From Candidatus Aenigmatarchaeota archaeon (GTDB lineage: Archaea; Aenigmatarchaeota; Aenigmatarchaeia; GW2011-AR5): a DNA stretch of 64,000 bases. Position 1 is the stretch's first letter. Every line of letters begins with the position of its first letter. Positions 8,508-63,861 of this stretch are shown one piece after another. The stretch covers positions 40,962 through 104,961 of the forward strand of contig JACPRW010000010.1 of NCBI GenBank assembly GCA_016193585.1. The letters are read 5' to 3'. The notes beneath the pieces are model-generated. The model was not told the origin of the DNA, did not search any database, and saw only the letters and a program-made list of their open reading frames with translations. A program made the translations under genes and the position numbers.

Positions 8508-8615
8508 GAGGAGTAGCAACGGTCATATGGTCTCTCCTCGCCCTGCTCATCCTTGGTATCCTTGGCGTCGTGTTCTTTTTCCTGCTGGGAAACGTGTAAG
8601 CTACGAATGCCTATA

Positions 8616-8764
8616 TATAGTGAACCAAGTAAACAATCAGGTATTATATCTTGGTTCACTTACACGCAAAAAGCAAAGCTTTTTGGTGCACCGGAAAACC
8701 TTGTTTTCCGCGTGTAGCGGACAACAAAAGTAATATGTTGGTATTCTTTTGTTGGTCCACTATA
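8616..8764. repeat. TATAGT/ACTATA-bounded hairpin element, copy E2
   Basis: GTGAACCAAG..CTTGGTTCAC; double-hairpin cassette TACACG[..]GTGCAC[..]CGTGTA; GGACAACAAAAG..CTTTTGTTGGTCC with loop TAATATGTTGGTATT. Confidence 0.85.
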
Positions 8765-8803
8765 AACCTTGCAAAAAGAATGCTTTTTTGCGCCGCGGGC
8801 GCT

Positions 8804-11300: not shown

Positions 11301-11420
11301 GCTCCGTTAGTCTAGCCCGGTCAAGGATGGTGGCCTTTCGACGACCTTTTTTGGAAAAAAAGCTCGACCAAAAAAGCGGGAGCAAAGCCGCAGACACGGG
11401 TTCGAATCCCGTACGGAGCA
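11301..11420 (+). tRNA. tRNA-Glu(TTC) with 45-nt intron after the anticodon loop (11342..11386)
   Basis: GCTCCGT/ACGGAGC acceptor; GTGGC CTTTCGA [intron] GCCGC. Confidence 0.88.
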
Positions 11421-15049: not shown

Positions 15050-15075
15050 CTGTTATTTTCTTTGAGCGCATGGCT

Positions 15076-15171
15076 TATAGCAGATTGTAATAATAATGGA
15101 ACTTTTTACCACAATCTGCTATAGGGAAAGAACATTGTAAAATGTTCCAAAATCAATGTTCTTTACTATTA
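15076..15171. repeat. Hairpin element, copy E3
   Basis: TATAG CAGATTGT..ACAATCTG CTATA, then AAAGAACATTG..CAATGTTCTTT ACTATTA; loops contain TGGAAC and GTTCCA. Confidence 0.85.
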
Positions 15172-15199
15172 CATTCCTCGCCCTCTCTACGTATTTTTC

Positions 15200-17228: not shown

Positions 17229-17940
17229 CAGATACGTCGGTGAACAGTCTTTTAATACTTTAAGCACGGATAGTAGTTGGGTTTTCAGCGGCGTGAACGT
17301 CCGTTCACGTCGAAGGGCGGCTTGGTTTGGCAACTGTTGCTCACAGGATTTTGATACGCAGAGGGCGCACTGTCCTTTGGTAATCAGCAATTAGCAGAAC
17401 CAACCGTTTCTCTGTTTCATAATCACGAGCTCTTCGGAGCGATGAATCACGCTGCGCGCCTCGGTAATGGCGTTGTTTTCGAGTGTATGCAAAAAAGAAA
17501 CGGCGGACGCACGGCGTCCGTCCCGCATGCGATGAAAAAACAGTTCACGCGCAGCTCAGGTGAAGGCATTATGCAGTCATAATGTCGGATAGAGGTATGA
17601 GCAGGCCAAACACTATTAGAAAAATTTGCAGGGTAAGTGTTTTCCCTACAATTCCGGTTGATCCCGCCGGAGACTACCTTTATCAGGATTCGGCTAAGCC
17701 ATGCGAGTCACTGCCGCAAGGCAGGGCGAACTGCTCAGTAACACGTAGCTAATCTGCCCTCAGGAAGGGGATAACGCCGCGAAAGTGGCGATAATACCCT
17801 ATAGGCGATAGAGGCTGGAAGGCGCTTTCGCCAAAAGCCGCAAGGCACCTGAGGATGAGGCTGCGGCGGATTAAGCTGTTGTTAGGATAAATGCCTAACA
17901 AACTTATAATCCGTACGGGTCGTGAGAGCGATAGCCCGGA

Positions 17941-18818
17941 GAGAGGTGGTTAACTTTAAATTTTCCCTGAGGCAAGTACCTGTATGCATGTGAATGAAAG
18001 ACGCATGTCAAGATTTATAGGGTATCTGTTCAGTGATGGGAGTTTAAGACGCAAAAAGAATAAAATGGGAATAGAACAAGTAGAAGTTTCGATAGAGTGT
18101 GCAGATCTAGCGATAGTGCAGGATTTTCGGCAACTTTGTAGCGACATTTTAGGAAGAAACGTTGGGAAAATAACCAAGAGAAAACGTGATAAAAACTGGA
18201 GAGCCAGCTACAGCTTTTATTGCAAGTTAAATAAAGAGTGGAGAAAGTTTTTGTTTAGCATGTCACCAACTTTTAGAACTTCTCCATGCCTGGTTAACCT
18301 CCACGGCGGTAAGCTGTGTCAGAAATGTTTAACAAAACACTATAAAGACACGACGTACCCGGGGATTAAAATCCCAAGATTCGTTTATAAAAGCAATAAC
18401 AACATAAAGGATTTTCTTCAGGCATTCACAAATTCAGAAGGAAGTGTTCAGTTAAGAGCAAATAGACATGGCAAATGGCTTGAGTTTTCAAGACATATAA
18501 AGATTTCAACTGAACATCCGCTGCTATTAAAAGGAATTTCTAGGATGCTGAAAACCCTTAAAATAAATCATAGATTTGTGCCGAAAACAAACCCAAATTC
18601 AGTGATAATACAACAAAAAGAATCGATCAAAAAATTTCGAAAATTAATTGGATTCATGGGTGGCATCAGAATAACCCCAACGGGTATCTGGGGAAACTAT
18701 GAAAAAACAAAAATTCTAGATGCAATAATAAAGACATTCGATTTTGATCGAGGATTTCTGCAAACATTTTTAGATGATAATGAAATATACTCTTTCATAA
18801 AAGTTAACCACCTCCCGG
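17941..18818 (+). mobile_element. 16S intron 1 with LAGLIDADG gene
   Basis: Terminal complementarity GAGAGGTGGTTAACTTT / AAAGTTAACCACCTC; interrupts the conserved region after AGCCCGGA. Confidence 0.8.
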
Positions 18819-18859
18819 ATATGGCTTCTGAGATTTGCAGAATAGAATCTCTGAAGTAA
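17984..18859 (+). CDS. LAGLIDADG homing endonuclease
   Basis: FIGYLFSDGSL and FLQAFTNSEGSV; C-terminus appears to read into the 3' exon. Confidence 0.85.
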   Translation: MHVNERRMSRFIGYLFSDGSLRRKKNKMGIEQVEVSIECADLAIVQDFRQLCSDILGRNVGKITKRKRDKNWRASYSFYCKLNKEWRKFLFSMSPTFRTSPCLVNLHGGKLCQKCLTKHYKDTTYPGIKIPRFVYKSNNNIKDFLQAFTNSEGSVQLRANRHGKWLEFSRHIKISTEHPLLLKGISRMLKTLKINHRFVPKTNPNSVIIQQKESIKKFRKLIGFMGGIRITPTGIWGNYEKTKILDAIIKTFDFDRGFLQTFLDDNEIYSFIKVNHLPDMASEICRIESLK

Positions 18860-19075
18860 GAATGCTCTCATTGAGCCGCATTCTTAGGCTTGCTGTTCTG
18901 CGAACAGAAAACATAAAGCCAGGCTCTACGGAGCGCAGCAGGCGCGAAACCTTTCCAATGCGCGAAAGCGTGAGAAGGGAATCCTGAGTGATTTCGCGCG
19001 AGCGAAATCTTTTCTCTAGTCTAAACAGCTGGAGGAATAAGTGGTGGGTAAGACGGTTGCCAGCCGCCGCGGTAA

Positions 19076-19157
19076 TTTGCAGAATCGACGCACGATTCAG
19101 TCTGGCATCGCATGGATTTCAGGCGATTCTGAAATTTCCGGTTCTGCGAACCGTAAA
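19076..19157 (+). mobile_element. 16S ORF-less insertion at the ~530 loop (GCGGTAA | CCGCGCC)
   Basis: ~80 nt between universally conserved 16S segments. Confidence 0.75.
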
Positions 19158-19233
19158 TAACCGCGCCACGAGAGGTAGTCACGATTATTGGGCCTGAAGC
19201 GCCCGTAGCCGGGCTGGTGTGTCTCTGGTGAAA

Positions 19234-19300
19234 TTCGCAAAAAGCAGAGCTTTTTGGAATTTGCTGTTCGCAACTTCCGATGCTTCATTTGCGAACACCA
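19234..19300 (+). repeat. 16S insertion containing CAAAAAGC-aga-GCTTTTTG hairpin
   Basis: Extra sequence in the helix before GGAGATACTACCAGTC; hairpin nearly identical to those in E2 and a 23S insertion. Confidence 0.7.
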
Positions 19301-19894
19301 AATCCGGCAGCAAACTGTCGGGCTTGCTGGAGATACTACCAGTCTTGGGACCGGGAGAGGCCGATGGTACGTTACGGGTAAGGGTAAAATCTTTTAATCC
19401 GTAACGGACCACCTGTGGCGAAGGCGATCGGCTGGAACGGGTTCGACGGTGAGGGGCGAAAGCTAGGGGAGCGATCGGGATTAGATACCCCGGTAGTCCT
19501 AGCTGTTAACGATGCCCGCTTGGTGTTGCATGTCCTTCGTGGACATGCAGTGTCGTAGCGAAGGCGATAAGCGGGCCGCCTGGGGAGTACGACCGCAAGG
19601 TTGAAACTTAAGGGAATTGGCGGGGGAGCACTACCAGGGGTGGAGGCTGCGGTTCAATTGGATTCAACGCCAGGAACCTGACCCGGGAAGACAGCAGAAT
19701 GAGGGTCACTCTGAAGGGGTTACCTGACAAGCTGAGAGGTGCTGCATGGCCGTCGTCAGTTCGTGCTGTGAAGTGTCATGTTAAGTCATGAAACGAACGA
19801 GACCCGTGCCGCTAGTTGCCACTCCCTTCTTCGGAAGGGAAGCACTCTATCGGGACCGCTGGTGCTAAACCAGAGGAAGGGACGGTCGACGGCA

Positions 19895-20725
19895 GATAGG
19901 GGAAGGTGAATCTACAAATACTAGCCTAAACAAGGTTAGTATATGCCTCCAACGTCAGTATCTTTACATCAAATTAGAAAGATGTTCAGAGACGTTAAGA
20001 AACTGACAAAAGATTTCAGAGAAATAAAGCCAGAATTGATTGAAAATGATGCATCCAAAATACTAATCTTGCGCTTGGCTCTCCAAATGTCGCAAAATAA
20101 TTTTGAAACATTTGTCGGGGCTGAAAACAACAAGAATATCAGCAAGTATGAAAGGGGCATCATAAAGAAAATGAAAGCGAAAACTGCAGAAAAGTACATA
20201 GAAAAGATTAAAGGAAAACTAAAAGAAAATGTAACAGAAGAAAATGTACTTCTGGCTTACAAAAGAATGGCTTCTGAATCAAATGGTTTCTTCAAAGCAA
20301 ACCAAGGGACTAAAAAAGTTCTCTTGGCCCAAAGAAAAGGTGCAATAAATTCATTGCGTCTCAGATCGACTGAACAGGAAATGTCTGTGATGGCTTTTCT
20401 CGAGTCTAACGGACTTAATCCAGAGATAAATTTTCCATTAGACGAAAACAAAGGCATCATAACCGACATCTTTCTACGAGATCATCATATAGCAATTGAA
20501 TGTAAGGATATCAAAACAAAAAGCTACAAAGAGCACAAAAATAACATACGGCTTCTTGCATATCAAGGTTATAGAATAAAATTTAATTTCAAAACACTAA
20601 AACTTGCTGCATTCGTGAAATCTAACTTCGCAGTAAGTCAGAGAGACCTTGAAGAATTGAAAGGACCTTATGATTTTGTTTTTACTGACGTTGGAGAGCT
20701 GAAGCATATCATCGTCCCCTAGCCG
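19895..20725 (+). mobile_element. 16S intron near site ~1205 encoding a non-LAGLIDADG nuclease
   Basis: ATAGGGGA...TCCCCTA terminal stem; interrupts GACGGTCGACGGCAG | ATGTCAGTATGGCCCGAATTCC. Confidence 0.85.
19943..20722 (+). CDS. Predicted XRE-HTH + PD-(D/E)XK-like (putative homing) endonuclease
   Basis: LALQMSQNNFETFVG..ISKYERG HTH-like; RSTEQEMSVMAFLESNG...ITDIFLRDHHIAIECKD nuclease-like motif; no LAGLIDADG. Confidence 0.65.
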   Translation: MPPTSVSLHQIRKMFRDVKKLTKDFREIKPELIENDASKILILRLALQMSQNNFETFVGAENNKNISKYERGIIKKMKAKTAEKYIEKIKGKLKENVTEENVLLAYKRMASESNGFFKANQGTKKVLLAQRKGAINSLRLRSTEQEMSVMAFLESNGLNPEINFPLDENKGIITDIFLRDHHIAIECKDIKTKSYKEHKNNIRLLAYQGYRIKFNFKTLKLAAFVKSNFAVSQRDLEELKGPYDFVFTDVGELKHIIVP

Positions 20726-20895
20726 ATGTCAGTATGGCCCGAATTCCCTGGGGTTACACGCGGCCTACAATGCGTAGGACAATGGGATGCGATGCCGTGA
20801 GGCAAAGCCAATCTCCTAAACCTACGCTTAGTTCGGATCGGGGGCTGCAACCCGCCCCCGTGAAGCCGGAATCCCTAGTAAGCGAAGGTCATCAT

Positions 20896-20993
20896 GAATG
20901 CGCGTTCGCAGGATGATTGGTCGTGCATGCGGCGGAGTGTAACGCTGCGTGCAGTGCAGCACAATGACATGTTCGCGCGTCCGTGAACTCTTT
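20896..20993 (+). mobile_element. 16S ORF-less insertion near site ~1391
   Basis: ~100 nt between GGTCATCAT and GCTGAATGCGTCCCTGCTCCTTGCACACACC. Confidence 0.75.
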
Positions 20994-21002
20994 CGCTGAA
21001 TG

Positions 21003-21034
<32 letters not shown>

Positions 21035-21102
21035 GCCATCCGAGTGGGAACTTGGTGAGGCGTGCGTTGAGCACGTCGAATCAAGTTTCTGCAAGGAGGG
21101 CT

Positions 21103-21268
21103 AAGAGCTCTTCTGTTCGCGCAAAAGAGCGAGCATTCGTAAAGTAACGAATGGGCGATTTGATTTGCTGGGTATGTAGATTACAAGGCTTGACCCTGAA
21201 CCAGCAGAGATGACAGGACTGAAGCGGCAGTGACGACGTGTTCGTCACTCAGTATCCAGTCGTTGCTC
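21103..21268 (+). mobile_element. 16S ORF-less insertion near the 3' end
   Basis: ~165 nt between AAGGAGGGCTAAG and AACAAGGTAGCCGTACGGG. Confidence 0.7.
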
Positions 21269-21467
21269 GGCAAACAAGGTAGCCGTACGGGAACGTGCGG
21301 CTGGATCACCTCCTTTATTTTTTCTCGAAAGAGCTTCGGCTCGAGTAGGGAAAAAGAAACGTGTGCGTTCTGATAGTAAGCCAAATCACCGGAAGCTGCG
21401 GCTTCCGTGATTTCCCGGAAAGTTCTGCTTTCCGAGGAAATGCTCATACCTCTGTCCTTAACCTTTT

Positions 21468-22532
21468 CTATCTGGAAAACCTCGCCTCGTTATTCTTCCA
21501 CAATAATCGTTCACGTATTTTTCGTGGTGCAGCCCTGACGCTTTCCCTCATTAAAGCATATTCATCTTCTGACAACTGACCTGCCCGCATGCGTGCCGTG
21601 GCTGCTGCCTGCTCCCATTCTCGTAAATCTGACAGAAATCTCTGATAGACGGCGACGCCATCCTCAAGGCGGGATATACTGTTTGCCTTGCTGCTATCGG
21701 AATAGTATCTCTGCCGTAGATGCGCCATTCTCCGCTGCATCTCAGCTGCAAGCCGGTCAATAGGCATGAGAAGTGCATCAGAATATACAGCATGTAAAAA
21801 TACACGACGCAACAGATCGTCTAATGCCAGTATGTTGTTGGGAGACGGAGACGTGTATGGCCTGTCAACGCCGTATACTCTGAATATTTCTGAAAAATTC
21901 AACTGGTGATTTACGTTTGTATCAGTTCCCGACAAATATGCAGGATCCAGTCCCTTGACGCCTTGTATATCGAAGGGATGATAACCTCTTCGTGAAACTT
22001 CGTCCATGACAGTATCCCGATTCTGGTGTGCAATAACTGTTGTTGAATCGGGAAGGAAGATTTTTCCAAGAACGACCGTATCATGTGTAAATACGCAAGT
22101 AACCTGATCAATTATATCACGTAGGGGGATAAGGTAAGCGTATCGTTTGCCTTTCCATGAATAGCTTCGTTCTCGCATATCACCCCCTGTGTGGTCCGCA
22201 ACAACCCCGTTCAGGGTAAAGCTGAGTGTTTCTCTGGGGAAAAACCACTGTTCCCCGTCCTCAACAGCCGGCGAATACGAATGTGGTTTTAATGCGCCGT
22301 CTCTAACGTCCTGGTCCGTTAGGTGCACCGCTATCAGTTCATCCAACGGTACGGGATGATACGTTGGCGGTTTCCACCCGATATTCGGCGTGTACGGCAT
22401 TTCTTCTATGCTGCGTCCTAAAAAATCCCGGTCGCTGTATCTCCGGTCTCTGACTGGCTCTCCGATTTTGTAGTTTGCCATGGTACCACGAAGCGGTATG
22501 TGGTATGCATGTAACCTTATTAAATCTGCCAT
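21468..22532 (-). CDS. Hypothetical protein in the 16S-23S spacer, opposite strand
   Basis: 354-aa ORF (alternative start MANYKIGEPV ~22481); no family recognised. Confidence 0.65.
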   Translation of the reverse strand: MADLIRLHAYHIPLRGTMANYKIGEPVRDRRYSDRDFLGRSIEEMPYTPNIGWKPPTYHPVPLDELIAVHLTDQDVRDGALKPHSYSPAVEDGEQWFFPRETLSFTLNGVVADHTGGDMRERSYSWKGKRYAYLIPLRDIIDQVTCVFTHDTVVLGKIFLPDSTTVIAHQNRDTVMDEVSRRGYHPFDIQGVKGLDPAYLSGTDTNVNHQLNFSEIFRVYGVDRPYTSPSPNNILALDDLLRRVFLHAVYSDALLMPIDRLAAEMQRRMAHLRQRYYSDSSKANSISRLEDGVAVYQRFLSDLREWEQAAATARMRAGQLSEDEYALMRESVRAAPRKIRERLLWKNNEARFSR

Positions 22533-22549
22533 CCGAAAGAATTAGACAC

Positions 22550-22696
22550 GGGCTGGTAGATCAGCTGGAACACGTGCGGCAAAGATCGCCTGCTTTGCAA
22601 ATGCCCCGCAGCCTGCGGCTGCGTTGCATCCCATTTTACGATGAGAGGGGCAATCAAACCAGCAGGAGGCCATGGGTTCAAATCCCATCCAGTCCA
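22550..22696 (+). tRNA. tRNA-Ala(TGC) with ~61-nt anticodon-loop intron and D-loop insertion
   Basis: GGGCTGG/CCAGTCC; CCTGC TTTGCAA [intron 22601..22661] GCAGG; T-arm ATGGGTTCAAATCCCAT. Confidence 0.88.
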
Positions 22697-24038
22697 TTAT
22701 GAGCTACCGATGGGAACCGCAGCGCATCGAGCTGCCGCTCGACGTCAGGTGGCCGCAGTTGCGGGAAGTCTATGAGCGTCTCGACAGGAAGGGGAAAAAG
22801 TCTCGGTATCGAGACGCATCCGACCTACCTCATTGTCGTTGCCGTACCGCTTGATCCTCGGGACATGAGCGACATCCGGCGGGTGAACGGACCGGAAGGC
22901 TACCATGCAGGGGATTGAATCGCGGCTCCCGCACTCGTCATCTTTATATACTTTTATCCGGTATTAGTGCTGGTTGCAGGGTCAGCAATCCTGCGTTTGT
23001 TTTACAGTACCATACGAGAAAACTACCGAGGCTGTTCAGAGTCGGTACAAGCTTTGTGGCAGAAGCGTGTGTCGTCAGCGGGTAGCGGCGTGAATCAGAA
23101 CGTCACTATGCATGCGTTGCTTCTGGACTTCTTCGGTGCACTACCTGCAATGGCAGCACGCTGTGCGAGTCAGCTGTTGTCGGTTGACATGTGGCCGGCC
23201 AGCGCCGCTGGTTTGGTTGAATGCTGATGTTCTTGATGAGGCAGTCATAGTCCAGGACGAAGATAGCTAGCTCCCACGCTGTCAGGTGGATAGCTCGGTT
23301 CGCGAGGCGACGAAGGAGGTGGCAAGCTGCCGTAAGGTGCGGCAAGGCGCATGCAGCCTTTGAACCGCACATCTCCGAATGGCACATAGCCGACAACTCG
23401 CGGAAGACAAATCGACGCACCCTCAGGTGCGTCAAGTCGCTTTCTGCGAGAGCGAACGCAGAGAATTAAAACATTTTAGTACCTGCAGAAAGAGAAAGCA
23501 ACAGCGATCTCCCCAGTAATGGCGAATGAAAAGGAGACAGAACAAACCGAAGCTCCCTGGAAACAGGGTAGCGATGTGGAGAGGGCAGGGGCCGTTCTTC
23601 GTTTGCCGACCCGAAGTGTGCTGGAACGCACTGGTACAAAGCGTGATACCCGCGTAGGGGAAGGCAAAAAAGAATATGCCCTGCTGCACGAGTATGGCCG
23701 GCCGGATAGCCGGTCAGAATACGGGTCTCATCTAGACCCAATTCTAAACACTCCGCGAAACCGATAGTGAAGTAGTACGGTGACGGAACGATGAAAAGAA
23801 GGGGTAACACCCGATGAAAAAAGCTTGAAACCTGGCAGCTATCGTTTGTTGGGTAAGGCTCCCGCAAGGGAGAAGAATCCAACGTCCGTTTTGAATAACG
23901 GGGCAGGGAGTTCATGGCAGTGGCGAGGCTAAGCGCTTCACGCGCGGAGCCGGAGCGAAAGCGAATGCGCGCAGGCAACAAGGCGCACCGTATGAAAGTG
24001 CGGAAGTCACTGCCCTGAGACCTGAAAATTTGGGAGTG

Positions 24039-24862
24039 AGTGAAGGTTTGCTGGCTCGATGGGCTTATTTTTCTTTTGCTGAAGCGAAATTAAGATAAGC
24101 CCATCTTGCCCAATAAGTCTATGGAAGCGAGAGATACGTTGATGGCTCGGCTCATAGCTTTGTTGCTTACCGATGGCGGACTTTGTGGAATAGGTAAAAG
24201 GTGGCGGATTCATTTCACGTCAAATTCAGAACAATTGGTAAGTGAATTCCAAGCACTGGTAAAGAATCTTTTCGATCTCAAAATGGTAAAAGACTATCGG
24301 AAAGGTGCATGGAGAATTCAGACATGGGTGAGCAATAAAGTGAAAGAAGAGCTTTTAGCATATTCCAAAACGTATAGAACGCTTTCTATAGAGGAAAAAG
24401 AGACGGAAGCTGAAATACCGGCTTTTATCAGAAACGACAAAGAACTTGCACGCGAATTCCTAAAATATGCATTCACGGCAGACGGGACAGTAATTTTCAA
24501 CATCGGAAAAGCACGGTATGGCTTTAGGTTCGATAGATGCGTGAAATTATATTCCGAGCACGCCCGTCTGAGAAACCAGTATTTCGAACTTTTGCAGAAA
24601 CTTGGTTATAGACCGGTCATGCTTAAAGATGCGGTGCTGCTAAGAAAGCCAACCAACATGACTAAGTTTGCAAACGAAATTGGTTTTGTAGAAGGTGTAA
24701 AAATTTCAGGCAAAGGTTTATGGAAAGGTATTACAAAAGACCGATTAACGGAATTCGCCGCAAATTCGTACAGTTTGAAGCCGAAAAAATTGGGGAAATC
24801 AAAAGCTGACATTCATGCGAACCTTGTAAATCTCATTCTCAAATCAGGAGACCAGATGATCT
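24039..24862 (+). mobile_element. 23S intron with LAGLIDADG gene
   Basis: Interrupts ..GGGAGTGAG | CTAGCCCTGGGCAAGG.. Confidence 0.8.
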
Positions 24863-24864
24863 AG
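24106..24864 (+). CDS. LAGLIDADG homing endonuclease
   Basis: LIALLLTDGGL and FLKYAFTADGTV; stop TAG lies in the 3' exon CTAGCCCTGGG. Confidence 0.88.
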   Translation: MPNKSMEARDTLMARLIALLLTDGGLCGIGKRWRIHFTSNSEQLVSEFQALVKNLFDLKMVKDYRKGAWRIQTWVSNKVKEELLAYSKTYRTLSIEEKETEAEIPAFIRNDKELAREFLKYAFTADGTVIFNIGKARYGFRFDRCVKLYSEHARLRNQYFELLQKLGYRPVMLKDAVLLRKPTNMTKFANEIGFVEGVKISGKGLWKGITKDRLTEFAANSYSLKPKKLGKSKADIHANLVNLILKSGDQMI

Positions 24865-24956
24865 CCCTGGGCAAGGCGACGCTGGGCGAAAGCTCAGTAG
24901 AAGCCTGCTACCGAACATAGTACAAACTTGTCGGGTGACCTGGGGTTAGGGGTGAA

Positions 24957-25273
24957 ATTCAGGGAGAAGAAGACTTAAGAAGATGTCCGTGAAAATGCGA
25001 GGAATGGGAACATGTGAGTATTGCAAACGTCCTGTATCGCCATTCGGCGATATGTCACGAGGGATACCGGGCCCATCGTATGCACTGCTGGAAGATGGTA
25101 AAGAAATAGCATTTTGCGGGGTTCCTTGTGAAATGTTCTATGTGCTGGAAACGGGCACTTCGCTCAGAAAAACTGATGGAAGACCGAATGAAGCATTTCC
25201 AAGCGATATTGGAAGTGAAGGCATCGCGGATCCTAAACATCCTGGATATAGCAAGAACTAGTTCTCTCTGAAC
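24957..25273 (+). mobile_element. 23S intron encoding a small zinc protein
   Basis: TTCAGGGAGAA / TTCTCTCTGAA termini; interrupts GGGGTGAAA | AATCGAATCTGG. Confidence 0.75.
24983..25261 (+). CDS. Intron-encoded TRASH-like zinc-binding protein (92 aa)
   Basis: CEYCKRPV...IAFCGVPCEMFYVLE (CxxC..FCxxxCxxFY). Confidence 0.55.
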   Translation: MSVKMRGMGTCEYCKRPVSPFGDMSRGIPGPSYALLEDGKEIAFCGVPCEMFYVLETGTSLRKTDGRPNEAFPSDIGSEGIADPKHPGYSKN

Positions 25274-25620
25274 ACCAAAAGCCAATCGAATCTGGTTATA
25301 GCGGGTTCCTTCCGAAATGTATCTCAGTACAGCCTCGTCTTGGGTAGATAGTGGGGTAGAGCACTGATTAGGCAGTCAAGGAGGGAGACTTCCACCTGTC
25401 TTGTCAAACTCCGAATCCATTATCGCGCAGACGGGAGTGAGCATGCCGGAGTAATTTTGGCATGCGAGAGGGAAACAACCCAGACCATGGTTAAGGTCCC
25501 TAAGTAGCTGTTAAGTACACCGAAGGTAGTCCTGAATCTCAGACAACGGGAAGGTTGTCTTAGAAGTAGACATCCTATAATCAACGTGTAATAACGGACC
25601 CGCCGAGATTCAGGGCGCTG

Positions 25621-25690
25621 AAAATAAACTTTTTGGGAAAAAGTTTAATCAAAAACCCAGAATGTTTGTCAGCAAAATGGACGGGGTTAA
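25621..25690 (+). mobile_element. 23S mini-insertion homologous to the tRNA-Val D-arm intron
   Basis: TAAACTTTTTGGGAAAAAGTTTAATCAAAAACCCAGAAT vs TAAGCTTTTTGGGAAAAAGCTTAACCAAAAACTTGGAAT. Confidence 0.75.
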
Positions 25691-25830
25691 ACAGCTCACC
25701 GATACCATGGGCACTGCACCCGCAGTGTGGTAGGGAGGCGTGCTGCGAGGGCAGAAGCTTCTCCGTGAGGAGGGGTGGACCTTGCAGCAATGAAGATCCT
25801 GCCGGGAGTAGCAATCAAGTCGGGCGAGAA

Positions 25831-26198
25831 ATGGCAGGAGAAGGTATATGAAAGTTTCTGATAGAGTAAATAGTACTGATAAATAGACTTGAAATAAGGT
25901 TTTCCACATGCATCAGTATAGGCTTAGTCTAAAAAGATGGAAAATTTCAAGTGAATTGCCGCGTATAGCAGGCGAGTTTTATGAAGCAGTACACAAACGG
26001 CAACTCTGGGATAATTTAAGACCCGAATTATCAATTAAACCTGATGGGCCTTATGTCAATACGTGCCATCTTAGAGTCAGGAAAGGATTATACCCAGCTA
26101 TTTATTCTATGGCAGATTCTTACGATTTAGAAATAGAAGATACAACATCTTTGTTTCTACGACTTAAGTTTTGGTAATTCTTTCTCCTCCACTCAATT
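25831..26198 (+). mobile_element. 23S intron encoding an 89-aa orphan protein
   Basis: AGGAGAA / TTTCTCCT termini; interrupts GTCGGGCGAGAA | AATTCCCGACCGCC. Confidence 0.7.
25908..26177 (+). CDS. Intron-encoded orphan protein (89 aa)
   Basis: ORF fills the insertion; no recognised family. Confidence 0.45.
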   Translation: MHQYRLSLKRWKISSELPRIAGEFYEAVHKRQLWDNLRPELSIKPDGPYVNTCHLRVRKGLYPAIYSMADSYDLEIEDTTSLFLRLKFW

Positions 26199-26995
26199 CC
26201 CGACCGCCTGAGGGGCCAGGGTTTCCGCTTAAAGCTTATCTGAGCGGAGTTAGCCGGTCCTAACCGCGCTCTTACGAAGACGCGTGGGAAAGGGAAACAG
26301 GTTAACATTCCTGTGCCATCCAGTGTTCGTCAATCCTGCGGTAAACGCTTCAGGATAGTCCGAGTATGGTCGTCGCCATATCCAAGCCTCGAAGCCGGGG
26401 GAGTGTAGTAACTGCGAGAACCCGGTGAAAGGGTGACGGGACTGATGTATGTCGGTTTTGGACGACTCCCGGAGCCCATGAAAATACTGCAGAGTAGAAT
26501 GCTGGGTGCCCGTACCCAGAACCGACTGTTTAGTTGATGTACTCAACTAAATCGGGAAACAGGTGCCCCTCGCTGAGAACTGAAAAGAGAAGTGTAAACG
26601 CACAGGCAAGAAGTACTCTGAAACCAGCGATCCAGAGCGGTCGATAAACTATGTAGCCAAGCCTGCCAGTGCACGAAACTGGAACTTCTTTTCTTTTCAC
26701 TCAATGGCGAAGGTGTTCGGGAGAATCCGCCTTAGGGAATTCGGCACGAATTGTTTGTTCATGCAAACATTCCCGTAAAATTAGCCGGGTATCTTTGGTA
26801 GAACCGGTGCCTAGTCAGGGATGACTAGGTCGCAGTGACAAGAGGGGTCCGACTGTTTAACAAAAACATAACTGACCGACAAGCCGAAAGGCCTTTTATG
26901 GTCAGCGAGTCGTGGCCACTAGCGGTGTGTGAAACCCCATTCCAATGGGTCTATGCCCCGCTGTAGGCCGGCCCTAACTCTGAGGGTCTTAAGGT

Positions 26996-27288
26996 GACAA
27001 CGTTGCCTTAGTAAAATTTGGCTATATGCGGGAACATCTTGGTGAAGCTTCAGTAGGCAACTGCTGTGGCGACACGGCAACAAAACCTAACAATCTGAAG
27101 CCAAGAGACAATCCGCAGGAAAGGCTTCTCTTTTGGAGAAGAATCCCCAGAGACTGTACGCCAGACTCTTCAATCGGAAGAGAAGATACAGTCCGAACCT
27201 CACGGTGACGTGAGGAGGCGCCAGCGAGTGCCCGCCTTTCACGATAATTATCCGAACCAATGTGAAAGGTTCCCAAGCAACAGAATTG
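26996..27288 (+). mobile_element. Group I intron in 23S rRNA (site ~1931), no ORF
   Basis: P1 AAGGU/GCCUU with U.G at the splice site; P/Q TATGCGGGAAC ... GACAATCCGCAGG; R/S AGACTGTACGCC ... AAGATACAGTCCGAACC; terminal G before exon AGCGTAATCCC. Confidence 0.9.
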
Positions 27289-27310
27289 AGCGTAATCCCT
27301 TGCCAACTAA

Positions 27311-27363
27311 ATTGCAAAAAGCAAAGCTTTTTGGGATCCCCGAAAAGCCATGCTTTTCGTAGA
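27311..27363 (+). repeat. 23S insertion: double hairpin with GGATCC linker
   Basis: CAAAAAGC-aaa-GCTTTTTG GGATCC CGAAAAGC-cat-GCTTTTCG. Confidence 0.8.
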
Positions 27364-27626
27364 TATTGGCCTGCATGATAGATTCACGAGATCCCTGCTG
27401 TCCCGAGGCGGAACCCGGCGAAACCATTTTTCTGGTGAGTAGGCCAGAGACCTCTAGTGGGAAGAGTAGACCCCGTGGAGCTTTACTGTAGTCTGATGTT
27501 GTGGTATGCGTATGAGTGTATAGCGTAGGTAGGAGGCGTCGAAGCCCTGCTGTAAGGTGGGGTGGAGCCGGCGATGTAACACTACCCATTCAAACGCATA
27601 TCGCTCACTTCGCGAGAAGGACACCA

Positions 27627-28280
27627 TCAGATGGACAGTTTGGCTGGGAATTCAAGAGAGGCTAACGAGTTTTTGGCAATCCCAAATTTAGGCGAGTTGC
27701 TATCAGACACAAGGCTCTCATCCAAGAACCCTGAAACTGAAAGAAAGCGCTTGCAGTTGTCAAATCCGGTGATGAGCACAGCCCTGCCGGTCAACCGGCA
27801 CTGTATGTCAAGCGTGGCAAGGCATTCGGCGAGGTGCGTTCTGAGATGCGGATAGTAGCAAGTAATTTCAACTCTGAGTATGCTGTATTTTTTGTTGGCA
27901 TACACTGAACCGTCGCCAGAAGCAAACCCCCTGAGAAAAGCTGCCGCAAAGCTCCTGTCGGTGCGTATAGCAACAGGAACGTTGCAGGTACCTTTTCTAT
28001 AGTGGGGATGCTTTGCTTCCACGCCGTTTCCGGGGATTGATAAGGAAATCAAGGCTCTAGCAATTGGTGAGGAAAAGAACCTCACCGAAACCGCATTGGT
28101 GCATTTGTTTTCGTGAAACCTGCTGATACCGAAACAGTCATGCGCAAGTTTCATGAAAACGTGCCTCAAGCCTTGAAGCTTATTGGTAAATTGGATGCAA
28201 TACGTGCGTTTCGATTTGTCATAATAAATTGAGCCGTCTGATAACAACAAACCGAGAAAAGTTGCCATCTTTTCGTCCAT
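27627..28280 (-). CDS. LAGLIDADG homing endonuclease encoded antisense to 23S rRNA
   Basis: FLGLLLSDGSI and FLRGFASGDGSV; likely start MDEKMATF; stop in the upstream rRNA exon. Confidence 0.85.
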   Translation of the reverse strand: MDEKMATFLGLLLSDGSIYYDKSKRTYCIQFTNKLQGLRHVFMKLAHDCFGISRFHENKCTNAVSVRFFSSPIARALISLSIPGNGVEAKHPHYRKGTCNVPVAIRTDRSFAAAFLRGFASGDGSVYANKKYSILRVEITCYYPHLRTHLAECLATLDIQCRLTGRAVLITGFDNCKRFLSVSGFLDESLVSDSNSPKFGIAKNSLASLEFPAKLSI

Positions 28281-28365
28281 GATGCTTGTTTGCTCCCTGT
28301 GTTTATAGGTGCTTGCCGAGCACATGAAGACTGAAAAGTCGATGAGTTTACTCTCTTGGGTCAGC
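27649..28365 (+). mobile_element. 23S intron carrying an antisense LAGLIDADG gene
   Basis: Interrupts GGACAGTTTGGCTGGG | GGCGGTACGC; CAAGAGAG / CTCTCTTG termini. Confidence 0.82.
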
Positions 28366-28569
28366 AGGCGGTACGCTTTTGAAAGGATATCAAAAGCCCC
28401 CAAAGTTCGGCTTGGCAGGGTCAGAAATCCTGCGGTCAAGTGCAAGCGCAAATGCCGGATTGACTGGACTCCCAACAGTACGGTGTCCAGCGTCGAAAGA
28501 CTGGGCTAGCGATACGCTGGTTGGCCTAGATGGCTGCCAGTGACATGAGAAAAGCTACCCCGGGGATAG

Positions 28570-29165
28570 ATTTATACGTCGGTGTGCACAAGTTAAGCGA
28601 ATGCAAGAAAAAGGTTTCATCTTGGGTGCAACTGAAGACGGTATACTCTACTACAGAGAGAATAAGAATGAATATGGCCTAGAAATCGAACAAAAAGTAA
28701 TGGAATGGCTGTTAGTTGTCCAGGAAGCGCTGAAAATTGCCTATAACAAGCAATCCAGAATAAGGAAAATGAAAAAGGGCTATTATAGGTTGAATGTGTA
28801 TTCAAAATCGCTCTATCATGAGCTGGTTGGATTACGAAACAACCCACAGCGCATTCTTGAGCAACCAGAAGCATTCCAGACTGGCTTCCTTCAAGGTATT
28901 TTTGATGCAGAAGGAAGCGTTCGATTAGATAGAAACCATATAAGCGTCAGCTCAAATAGGGAAAGTCTGATAAGCCTAGTTACTTTCCTGTTAGTCAAAA
29001 GGGATATAATTGCAGGAAAACCATGGCAAGATTCAGCTGGCGTGATATCTCTGTCAATATATGGCATAGATGATATCAAGAAGTTCTCTGATTTAGTAGG
29101 ATTCAGGCACCCTGAAAAAAAGCATAGACTTCAACTTTTAGTGAATGGTGTATAAATCCCCTATA
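28570..29165 (+). mobile_element. 23S intron in the peptidyl-transferase region with LAGLIDADG gene
   Basis: Interrupts GCTACCCCGGGGATA | GGTGTCGTAGCGGGTGAGAG. Confidence 0.8.
28601..29155 (+). CDS. Single-motif LAGLIDADG homing endonuclease
   Basis: FLQGIFDAEGSVRL. Confidence 0.8.
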   Translation: MQEKGFILGATEDGILYYRENKNEYGLEIEQKVMEWLLVVQEALKIAYNKQSRIRKMKKGYYRLNVYSKSLYHELVGLRNNPQRILEQPEAFQTGFLQGIFDAEGSVRLDRNHISVSSNRESLISLVTFLLVKRDIIAGKPWQDSAGVISLSIYGIDDIKKFSDLVGFRHPEKKHRLQLLVNGV

Positions 29166-29198
29166 ATGGTGTCGTAGCGGGTGAGAGTTCTCATCCGC

Positions 29199-29446
29199 GC
29201 TCTTCTTGAGGAATAACGCTGGTAGTGACGAGAATATACCCGTCCCAGTATGAGCGCCGCTTCGCGGCGCGGTGATTACAGCAGGGTAGCTTCTGAACCA
29301 GGCGAAACGTTGTTCCGCAAACACTAGCTAGATGAAGAGCTCATAGCCTTCGAGCCGTCGAAGGCGCTCAGAGCTGTCGTTAGTAAGCAGAACCGAGAGC
29401 CGTGGAGGTCTCGGAACTGCGAGCGAAGCGAGTGGTTCTGAGTGCG
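29199..29446 (+). mobile_element. 23S ORF-less intron
   Basis: TCCGCGCTC / GAGTGCGGA termini; interrupts GAGAGTTCTCAT | CAGATCGACCCCGCG. Confidence 0.72.
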
Positions 29447-29509
29447 GAGAACAGATCGACCCCGCGTGTTGCGGCGTCGCTGTCGGCTGGGCCTCTCCTG
29501 GCTGTGCAG

Positions 29510-29624
29510 CAAAGAAATAAGGCGAACATCTTGCTTGCCCTCAACCGTTTGACACGGCGGATAGCCTCGTATGAAGAACGGCGTTACAAGCGGGATAAGA
29601 ATAACGCCTTGTTTCTCTGCATGC
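29510..29624 (+). mobile_element. 23S ORF-less insertion
   Basis: GCAAAGAAATAAGGCG / CGCCTTGTTTCTCTGC termini. Confidence 0.68.
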
Positions 29625-30173
29625 AGCCAAGGGTGACGGAGTTCACGTATTAAAAGGCCACCTTAGCTGGGTTCAGAACGGCGTGAGCCAGTTTGGTCTA
29701 TATCTGCTAGAGGTGTTACTGCCTGAGGGAAAGGAGGGATAAGTACGAAAGGAACATCCCTTCGTGGCCTCTAGTTTACCTGCTGTCTGACAAGGCATGC
29801 AGGGTAGCCACGCCATACGCTCATTAGGGCTGAAGGCATCTAAGCCTGAAGGAGCTCTCGAAAAGAGGCAGATGGTACGCGCAAGACGACGCGGTATGGG
29901 AGCGGGGTGTACGCACCGAGCTTCGGCGAGGTGTTCAGCCCACGCTTCCCTACACCAATGCTAGCCTTCAAATGGCGCCAGTTGCGGCTGGCGCTTCCTG
30001 GAAACAGGGTCCTGAGACTATGACTGCCCCACGGGAAACGCAGGAATAGCTACTTTAACCTACATTCTCGGGTATAGAAAGGCTTATATATTAGTCCGTT
30101 ATATAAAGTAGTACGTGTGGTTTGGGTTACTCAGTTAATTCAATACATTACAGGCTAGATTGGGGTGTGGACT

Positions 30174-49685: not shown

Positions 49686-49784
49686 ATACTATACCCAGAG
49701 ACATTAATATTTGAACAAATTAATGTCTCTGGCATATCCTGAATGACACTATACAATGTTCAATAATTTATGTCATTCAGTATA
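49686..49784. repeat. Hairpin element, copy E4
   Basis: CCAGAGACATTAAT..ATTAATGTCTCTGG and CTGAATGACA..TGTCATTCAG; loops carry TTGAACA / TGTTCAA. Confidence 0.8.
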
Positions 49785-59508: not shown

Positions 59509-59631
59509 GCGTGGCGCCTGTCTCTTGCAGCATAGAAAGGCTCCTTATTATCCTACTTATCCTACTTCGGGCGCTTCCTTTGCCAATAATTGCCATACCT
59601 TTAAATCGACGCGGCAGAAAATAGTATGGGA

Positions 59632-59885
59632 TATACTAAACTGCGAAACTTATATGACGCAGATTCGCAGTTTGTATACAGATATAGCAATACAAGGAAA
59701 TAAACACGATACGAGGAGAATCGAAGATTCTCCTGTACAGGTGGATTCATGGAATCCACCTTGTATGACTTCCTTGTTTGCTATACATGGTGAAACAACG
59801 TTTCACCTGTACAGGTAAAGCTTTGCTTTACCATGTATGTGAAACAAGAAGTAATATGTCGGTATTATTTTCTTGTTTCACTATA
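59632..59885. repeat. Hairpin element, copy E7 (largest; two double-hairpin cassettes)
   Basis: AAACTGCGAA..TTCGCAGTTT; ATAGCAATACAAGGAA..TTCCTTGTTTGCTAT; two ATAC..TGTACA..GTAT cassettes; GTGAAACAAGAA..TTCTTGTTTCACTATA. Confidence 0.88.
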
Positions 59886-60005
59886 ACTGCTCATAATATG
59901 TCATAGCGTTCCATCATGTTCCGCGAAAGTGCTGCGCGGAAGTGCGGGTAGCGAAGGTGGAGCAGTACGATTGGCATCAGAATCCATGGCAATGGCCTCC
60001 AGAAC

Positions 60006-63517: not shown

Positions 63518-63655
63518 CATAAGCTTTGCACGTAAAGTACCCACACCATTCATGATGGTAGTGGGTTACCAGTTAGCCTACGCCGAAACAGATAGACGCA
63601 CCGTAGGTGCGTCAGTTCAACACACGTAGGCGACTTTACATGCAAAGCCTTTGAG
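63518..63655 (+). ncRNA. Candidate structured RNA / multibranched hairpin region
   Basis: Outer CTTTGCACGTAAAGT/ACTTTACATGCAAAG; inner ACCCAC/GTGGGT, GCCTACG/CGTAGGC, GACGCACC-gta-GGTGCGTC. Confidence 0.5.
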
Positions 63656-63672
63656 AGAAAAAACCCATGTAT

Positions 63673-63861
63673 TATAGCAGATTGTAATAATAATGGAACT
63701 TTTAGCCGCAATCTGCTATAGATAATTGCGCAGCTTATGTCGTATTAACGCGCAATTTTCTATAGGTGAATTGCAAATAATATCAGGACATAACCAGTGC
63801 AATTCACCATATATGGAAAGAACATTGTAAAATGTTCCAAAATCAATGTTCTTTACTATTA
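63673..63861. repeat. Hairpin element, copy E8 (nested: E3-like outer + inserted two-hairpin cassette)
   Basis: Near-identical to E3 on both sides of a ~93-nt insertion; inner loops TTATGTC / GACATAA. Confidence 0.88.

Follow-up and report, generated by a model that had tools for sequence, protein, structure and literature searches.

Palindromic elements derived from IS200/IS605 (PATE-like elements) have a fixed left tetra- or pentanucleotide target, which they do not duplicate. REPINs are inverted doublets of GTAG-tagged REP sequences, and the loops of GTAG REPs measure 2–20 nt, often 2–3 nt (PMC3116915, PMC3733652). Two further groups that invite comparison are the MITEs of the IS5 / PIF-Harbinger (PHIS) type (PMC4482050, PMC10969869) and the mitochondrial double-hairpin or repetitive hairpin elements (PMC2800124 and papers cited there). 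For archaea, a description of elements like those reported here was not found in the open-access literature. The present analysis concerns a nested locus, E8, in a 64,000-nt stretch of DNA (hereafter the window; contig C8, positions 40962–104961) from the genome of a Candidatus Aenigmatarchaeota archaeon, G000, which comprises 1,170,395 bases in 10 contigs and is about 91% complete.

The elements of this genome are REPIN-like in build, and two of their families, E and F, are IS5/PIF-type-MITE-like in target duplication. With REPINs they share two short inverted hairpin units, a conserved tag at both ends, an intergenic location, high copy number, the capacity to adopt either a single long hairpin or two hairpins, and insertion into each other. 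They differ in that the tag is (T)ATAG (i.e., TTA or TA followed by TAG) and not GTAG, the loops are 10–24 nt, two hairpins are usually more stable than one, E and F produce a TNA duplication, the host is an archaeon, and the about 91% complete genome gave no match to RAYT (PF01797). Like PHIS-type MITEs they are about 91 nt long, gene-less and multicopy with inverted ends, and E and F, but not A, B, C or G, have a 3-bp TNA/TWA duplication. Unlike such MITEs, each half is itself a hairpin, and TA takes the place of the 3-bp duplication in families A, B, C and G. An autonomous parent IS sharing their ends was not found among four profiles and the IS5-family gene in this ~91% complete genome. 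Mitochondrial hairpin elements are likewise small, probably mobile and intergenic, whereas the present elements have a prokaryotic host, a defined target duplication, halves that originate as an inverted pair, and extensive nesting.

By direct reading, positions 63672–63861 of the window consist of TTA, TAGCAGATTG...CTA, 93 nt, TATGG...TTCTTTACTA and TTA. The features of the locus, with the uninterrupted element E3 for comparison, are as follows.

63672–63674, unstranded: left target-duplication copy of the outer E, TTA, matching the right TTA at 63859–63861
63675–63858, + strand: outer element of family E (TAGCAGATTG...TTCTTTACTA), 91 nt of its own and the 93-nt insertion
63673–63720, + strand: E hairpin 1, arms 63673–63684 and 63709–63720, 12 bp, 100% paired
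63716–63765, + strand: A hairpin 1, arms 63716–63731 and 63750–63765, 94% paired, loop core TTATGTC at 63735–63741
63719–63809, + strand: inserted element, family A (TAGATAATTGCGC...TGCAATTCACCA), 91 nt, at least 37 copies genome-wide
63765–63808, + strand: A hairpin 2, arms 63765–63775 and 63798–63808, 11 bp, 100% paired, loop core GACATAA at 63787–63793
63810–63811, unstranded: TA to the right of A (duplicated or target TA), which with the TA at 63717–63718 brackets A
63817–63854, + strand: E hairpin 2, arms 63817–63827 and 63844–63854, 11 bp, 100% paired
63859–63861, unstranded: right target-duplication copy of the outer E, TTA (flank concordance in E and F, 43/48)
15078–15168, + strand: E3, uninterrupted E element with TTA/TTA flanks

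The first-pass annotation had described E8 as an E3-like copy carrying a second two-hairpin cassette, and this description holds: the left 56 nt and right 55 nt of E8 are 91% and 96% identical, respectively, to E3 (15069–15174). The gained DNA (63719–63811), put earlier at about 93 nt, is exactly 93 nt long and lies between both E hairpins, but the junction is CTA|TATGG, with TA as the target, and not CTATA|GG. Both hairpins ascribed to the insert are present, with loops longer (18 and 22 nt) than the cTTATGTCg and agGACATAAc originally given; the 7-nt segments within them are exact complements, as claimed, and form the core. Folded as RNA, E8 reaches -56.9 kcal/mol (z = -7.2), and none of 200 shuffles did equally well. 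The stretch between the last gene and E8 (63518–63653) is also strongly structured, with a three-way-junction-like fold (z = -7.9) and no Rfam match, and is possibly a novel structured RNA.

Family A is a mobile element with exact ends. The genome holds 23 uninterrupted copies and at least 14 that are interrupted or truncated, and near-identical copies occupy mostly unrelated flanks; among 20 uninterrupted copies with distinct flanks, 15 equal the query, four differ from it by one base and one by two. A copies that have both ends and no nested element invariably add 93 nt of DNA, TAGATAATT...CACCATA, and the dinucleotide to the left of A is TA in 28 of the 30 copies with both ends and CA in two. 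Searching for the cassette alone, as had been proposed, returned at least 36 further genomic sites, nearly always without E (one sits at the edge of another E copy), and the reciprocal search found about 28 genomic copies of E without a cassette inside. Removal of the 93 nt from E8 leaves CTATATGGAAAG, as in the unoccupied E copies of loci L043–L045. The same excision gives the unoccupied forms CTATATGG in host E, AAGTTATAATATCC in host D and AAGATATAATACC in host B, and in host G gives CATGATACAACGC, compared with the unoccupied CATAATACAACGC. E8 is thus a true insertion, since removing the 93 nt restores empty forms in four different hosts, and since A mostly occurs without E and E without A. 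A 3-bp ATA duplication for A was considered and rejected, since it would make the empty sites of three hosts 2 nt longer than they are. The earlier proposal of CTATA as the target is right in that the inter-hairpin TATA is hit, but this is one among many TA sites used. The competing account, raised in the first-pass annotation itself, that E8 is the ancestral long form and that E3-like copies arose from it by loss of the cassette, is refuted, as A is found separately in many unrelated contexts and E mostly lacks it; nothing was found in its favour.

Beyond this genome, an exact 27-mer of A had no match in collections of genome and viral contigs, and patterns of E and B had none in the viral-contig collection, the own genome possibly being absent from these collections. 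A search for A in 58 relatives gave two weak matches, one of them a diverged relative of the same build.

A and E belong to a superfamily of at least eight families in this genome that are built alike, with TAG followed by hairpin 1, a junction containing TATA, hairpin 2 and CTA. The elements are 86–93 nt long and end in CTA or CCA, and the first bases are TAG in all eight families with inverted ends (TAC in the G2 variant). When the left half was compared with the reverse-complemented right half, identity was 56–73% over the full length in all 12 elements examined; this full-length match identifies each element as two hairpin units placed in inverted orientation, the arrangement of REPINs. 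Four relatives (G002, G014, G017 and G018) carry elements of this build but of other sequence, and the superfamily has spread within this archaeal family. Other representatives in the window include the following.

8612–8774, + strand: family B element; a small palindromic element sits between the two hairpins
49689–49784, + strand: family J double hairpin, loop complement TTGAACA/TGTTCAA
57700–57786, + strand: family F element with TTA/TTA flanks
59631–59887, + strand: cluster of nested G2/C-type elements

Abundance was assessed in a 362-kb sample made up of complete stretches (contig C9, the greater part of C1 and the window), which contained 53 double hairpins compared with none in one local shuffle; the window alone contained 10, compared with 0–1 after shuffling. 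Eleven element types, smaller nested palindromes included, make up 7.0 kb in 123 pieces, or about 2% of the sample, and extrapolation from it suggests that the elements number in the hundreds genome-wide. Their GC content is 36%, against 53% for the genome. Under a simple ORF model, 15–23 of 85 element midpoints fall in ORFs where 78–84% of the DNA is coding, so that genes are avoided. In-frame insertion into genes was considered and rejected, as the only long open frame (L013) resembles, by eye, the antisense of another gene. GC skew was too weak for a comparison with element orientation. Nesting is extensive and, at defined TA/TNA sites, reaches a depth of three: A lies within E, D, B and G and, in addition, at the edge of F; the loops of A contain B and C, F contains H, and small palindromes lie within B and C. 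Several composites recur: A carrying B in loop 2 occurs in about eight places and D carrying A in four, and A carrying C in loop 1 recurs as well, the composites with B in loop 2 or C in loop 1 being found at several sites (L030–L036, L037–L041). This suggests that composites are mobile as single units or, alternatively, that TA sites in loops are hot spots.

Strong folds and an intergenic location would also be expected of functional RNA elements, such as terminators or determinants of RNA stability, that had been spread by gene conversion and not by transposition. We consider this very improbable, as the elements have precise ends and target duplications, insert into one another and into unrelated DNA, and match no Rfam family. 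On the window, Rfam returned rRNA, tRNA and a group I intron only, with E8 matching at chance level.

The rRNA genes of the window (17651–29969) are swollen by introns, with matches spanning 3.5 kb for the SSU and 6.7 kb for the LSU; there is a group I intron at 26965–27215, and there are LAGLIDADG-like ORFs at 17984–18859, 24106–24864 and 28601–29155. A 120-nt tRNA gene match at 11301–11420 probably contains an intron.

Target sites distinguish the families. Among 48 independent insertions of E and F, the outer 3-base flanks were TTA/TTA in 37, TCA/TCA in four, TAA/TAA in two and discordant in five. The concordance was significant for F alone (p = 5e-6, permutation), and for E and F together the observed level was reached in none of 200,000 permutations. 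As the variable middle base agrees on both sides, these flanks are a TNA target duplication, which marks a staggered double-strand cut of the kind that DDE-type transposases make. Single-strand HUH/Y1 transposition is not expected to duplicate variable target bases. Elements of families A, B, C and G are flanked by TA left and right, where a duplication is indistinguishable from an element-borne TA. A second palindromic element type, family H (TCTTGAATGCC...GGAGCATATCA; L010, L014, L015, L043 and others), has TTA on the left, TCA and then T on the right, and no duplication, an IS200/IS605-like pattern. Only H behaves like the IS200/IS605-derived elements, E and F differing by their duplication, and it is present even though the genome gave no TnpA or TnpB match.

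The nested loop complements of E8 had been read as a kissing pair inside a kissing pair. The complementarity is statistically real but modest, with p = 0.007 by exact permutation across nine families not chosen for complementarity (the value of 2e-5 for a larger set is biased, as that set includes families found through complementarity), while one functional kissing pair within another is not supported as stated. Since the inverted-pair build extends through the entire element, complementary loops are largely to be expected. It might still be argued that loop–loop kissing is a selected and mechanistically required contact joining the element ends, as exact complements of 7–9 nt with very different sequences occur in A, C, J, three families of G002 (a/b/c) and two of G014 (a/b), and as the complementarity holds across families not selected for it. 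That is unlikely in our judgement: the inverted-pair build predicts such loops on its own, the loops of B, G, G2, G014c/d and G017a score like random pairings and no better than the loops of other families, the mosaics L141 and L143 lack a core complement, and in subfamily F2 (loops AACCAAAC / GTTCACTAACC) the core no longer pairs although the target duplications are clean. Kissing as a required step of transposition is possible but unproven. Hairpin formation itself seems to be constrained, because, with DNA parameters, 10 of 12 elements fold more favourably as two hairpins than as a long one and a change in F hairpin 2 is compensated (TTCAG/CTGAA versus TTCTG/CAGAA).

Searches for the enzyme with Y1_Tnp (PF01797), Resolvase (PF00239), TnpB (PF07282, the Cas12f1-like TNB domain) and DDE_3/IS630 (PF13358) gave no match in the genome, of which about 9% is missing; as the assembly is about 91% complete, the actual enzyme may be absent from it. 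A single intact IS5-family transposase is present (410 aa, with a SWIM finger; C5:81428–82657), and its full-length relatives occur in G014 (two) and G002, both carriers of the elements, with a broken copy in G005. As a parent of the elements this transposase was rejected, the ends of its own IS being GGCTTTGTTTAA and not TAG, and as their mover it is at best a suspect. Directly upstream of its gene lies an AT-rich TATAG...CTATA inverted repeat (L131, C5:80000–83536).

An archaeal REPIN-type element moved through folded single-stranded DNA by a Y1 (RAYT/IS200-like) HUH transposase, which would recognise the two-hairpin fold whether or not the loops pair, would account for the inverted hairpin pair and its conserved tag (TAG in these elements and GTAG in REPs), for the preference for two hairpins over one in 10 of 12 elements, and for the IS200-like pattern of family H; Y1 genes are also present in 7 of 19 relatives. 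We nevertheless give it only a modest chance, in view of the 3-bp duplication at E and F, the lack of a PF01797 match in the about 91% complete genome, and the inspected Y1 genes of relatives, which do not have these ends. One Y1 gene in G018, about 100 bp from an element of this kind, looks like a separate IS200-type gene. The interpretation we favour, and consider probable, is that E8 consists of two nested, MITE-like transposons that are non-autonomous and built like REPINs, and that a DDE-type transposase moves them in trans. E would first have inserted into a TTA site, duplicating TTA, and A would then have entered the TA between the two hairpins of E. The transposase acting in trans would recognise the TAG inverted ends and cut targets rich in T and A with a short stagger, the target being a 3-bp TNA for E and F and TA for families A, B, C and G. 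Excised circles or single-strand junctions of A, were they formed, would carry the sequence CCATATAG. The hairpins or the loop pairing may help the element ends to come together. Three points count against this interpretation: no enzyme with matching ends was found among the families searched in the genome, the TA flanks of A-type elements are indistinguishable from an element-borne TA and give way to CA on the left in 2 of 30, and two duplication lengths within one superfamily would be unusual. A more specific scenario, that a REPIN-like inverted-hairpin architecture served in trans by a DDE transposase, possibly the stand-alone IS5-family SWIM protein, has evolved in archaea, and that paired hairpins and complementary loops join the ends in folded or cruciform DNA, is decidedly speculative and we think it quite unlikely.

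A genome of 1.17 Mb thus carries at least eight families of transposons of about 91 nt, some recent enough for identical copies to be present. With one build, varied loops, ends and targets, and both filled and empty sites, they form a natural series for studying the role of hairpins and loop pairing in transposition, and they allow one to ask whether REPIN-like elements exist without RAYT.
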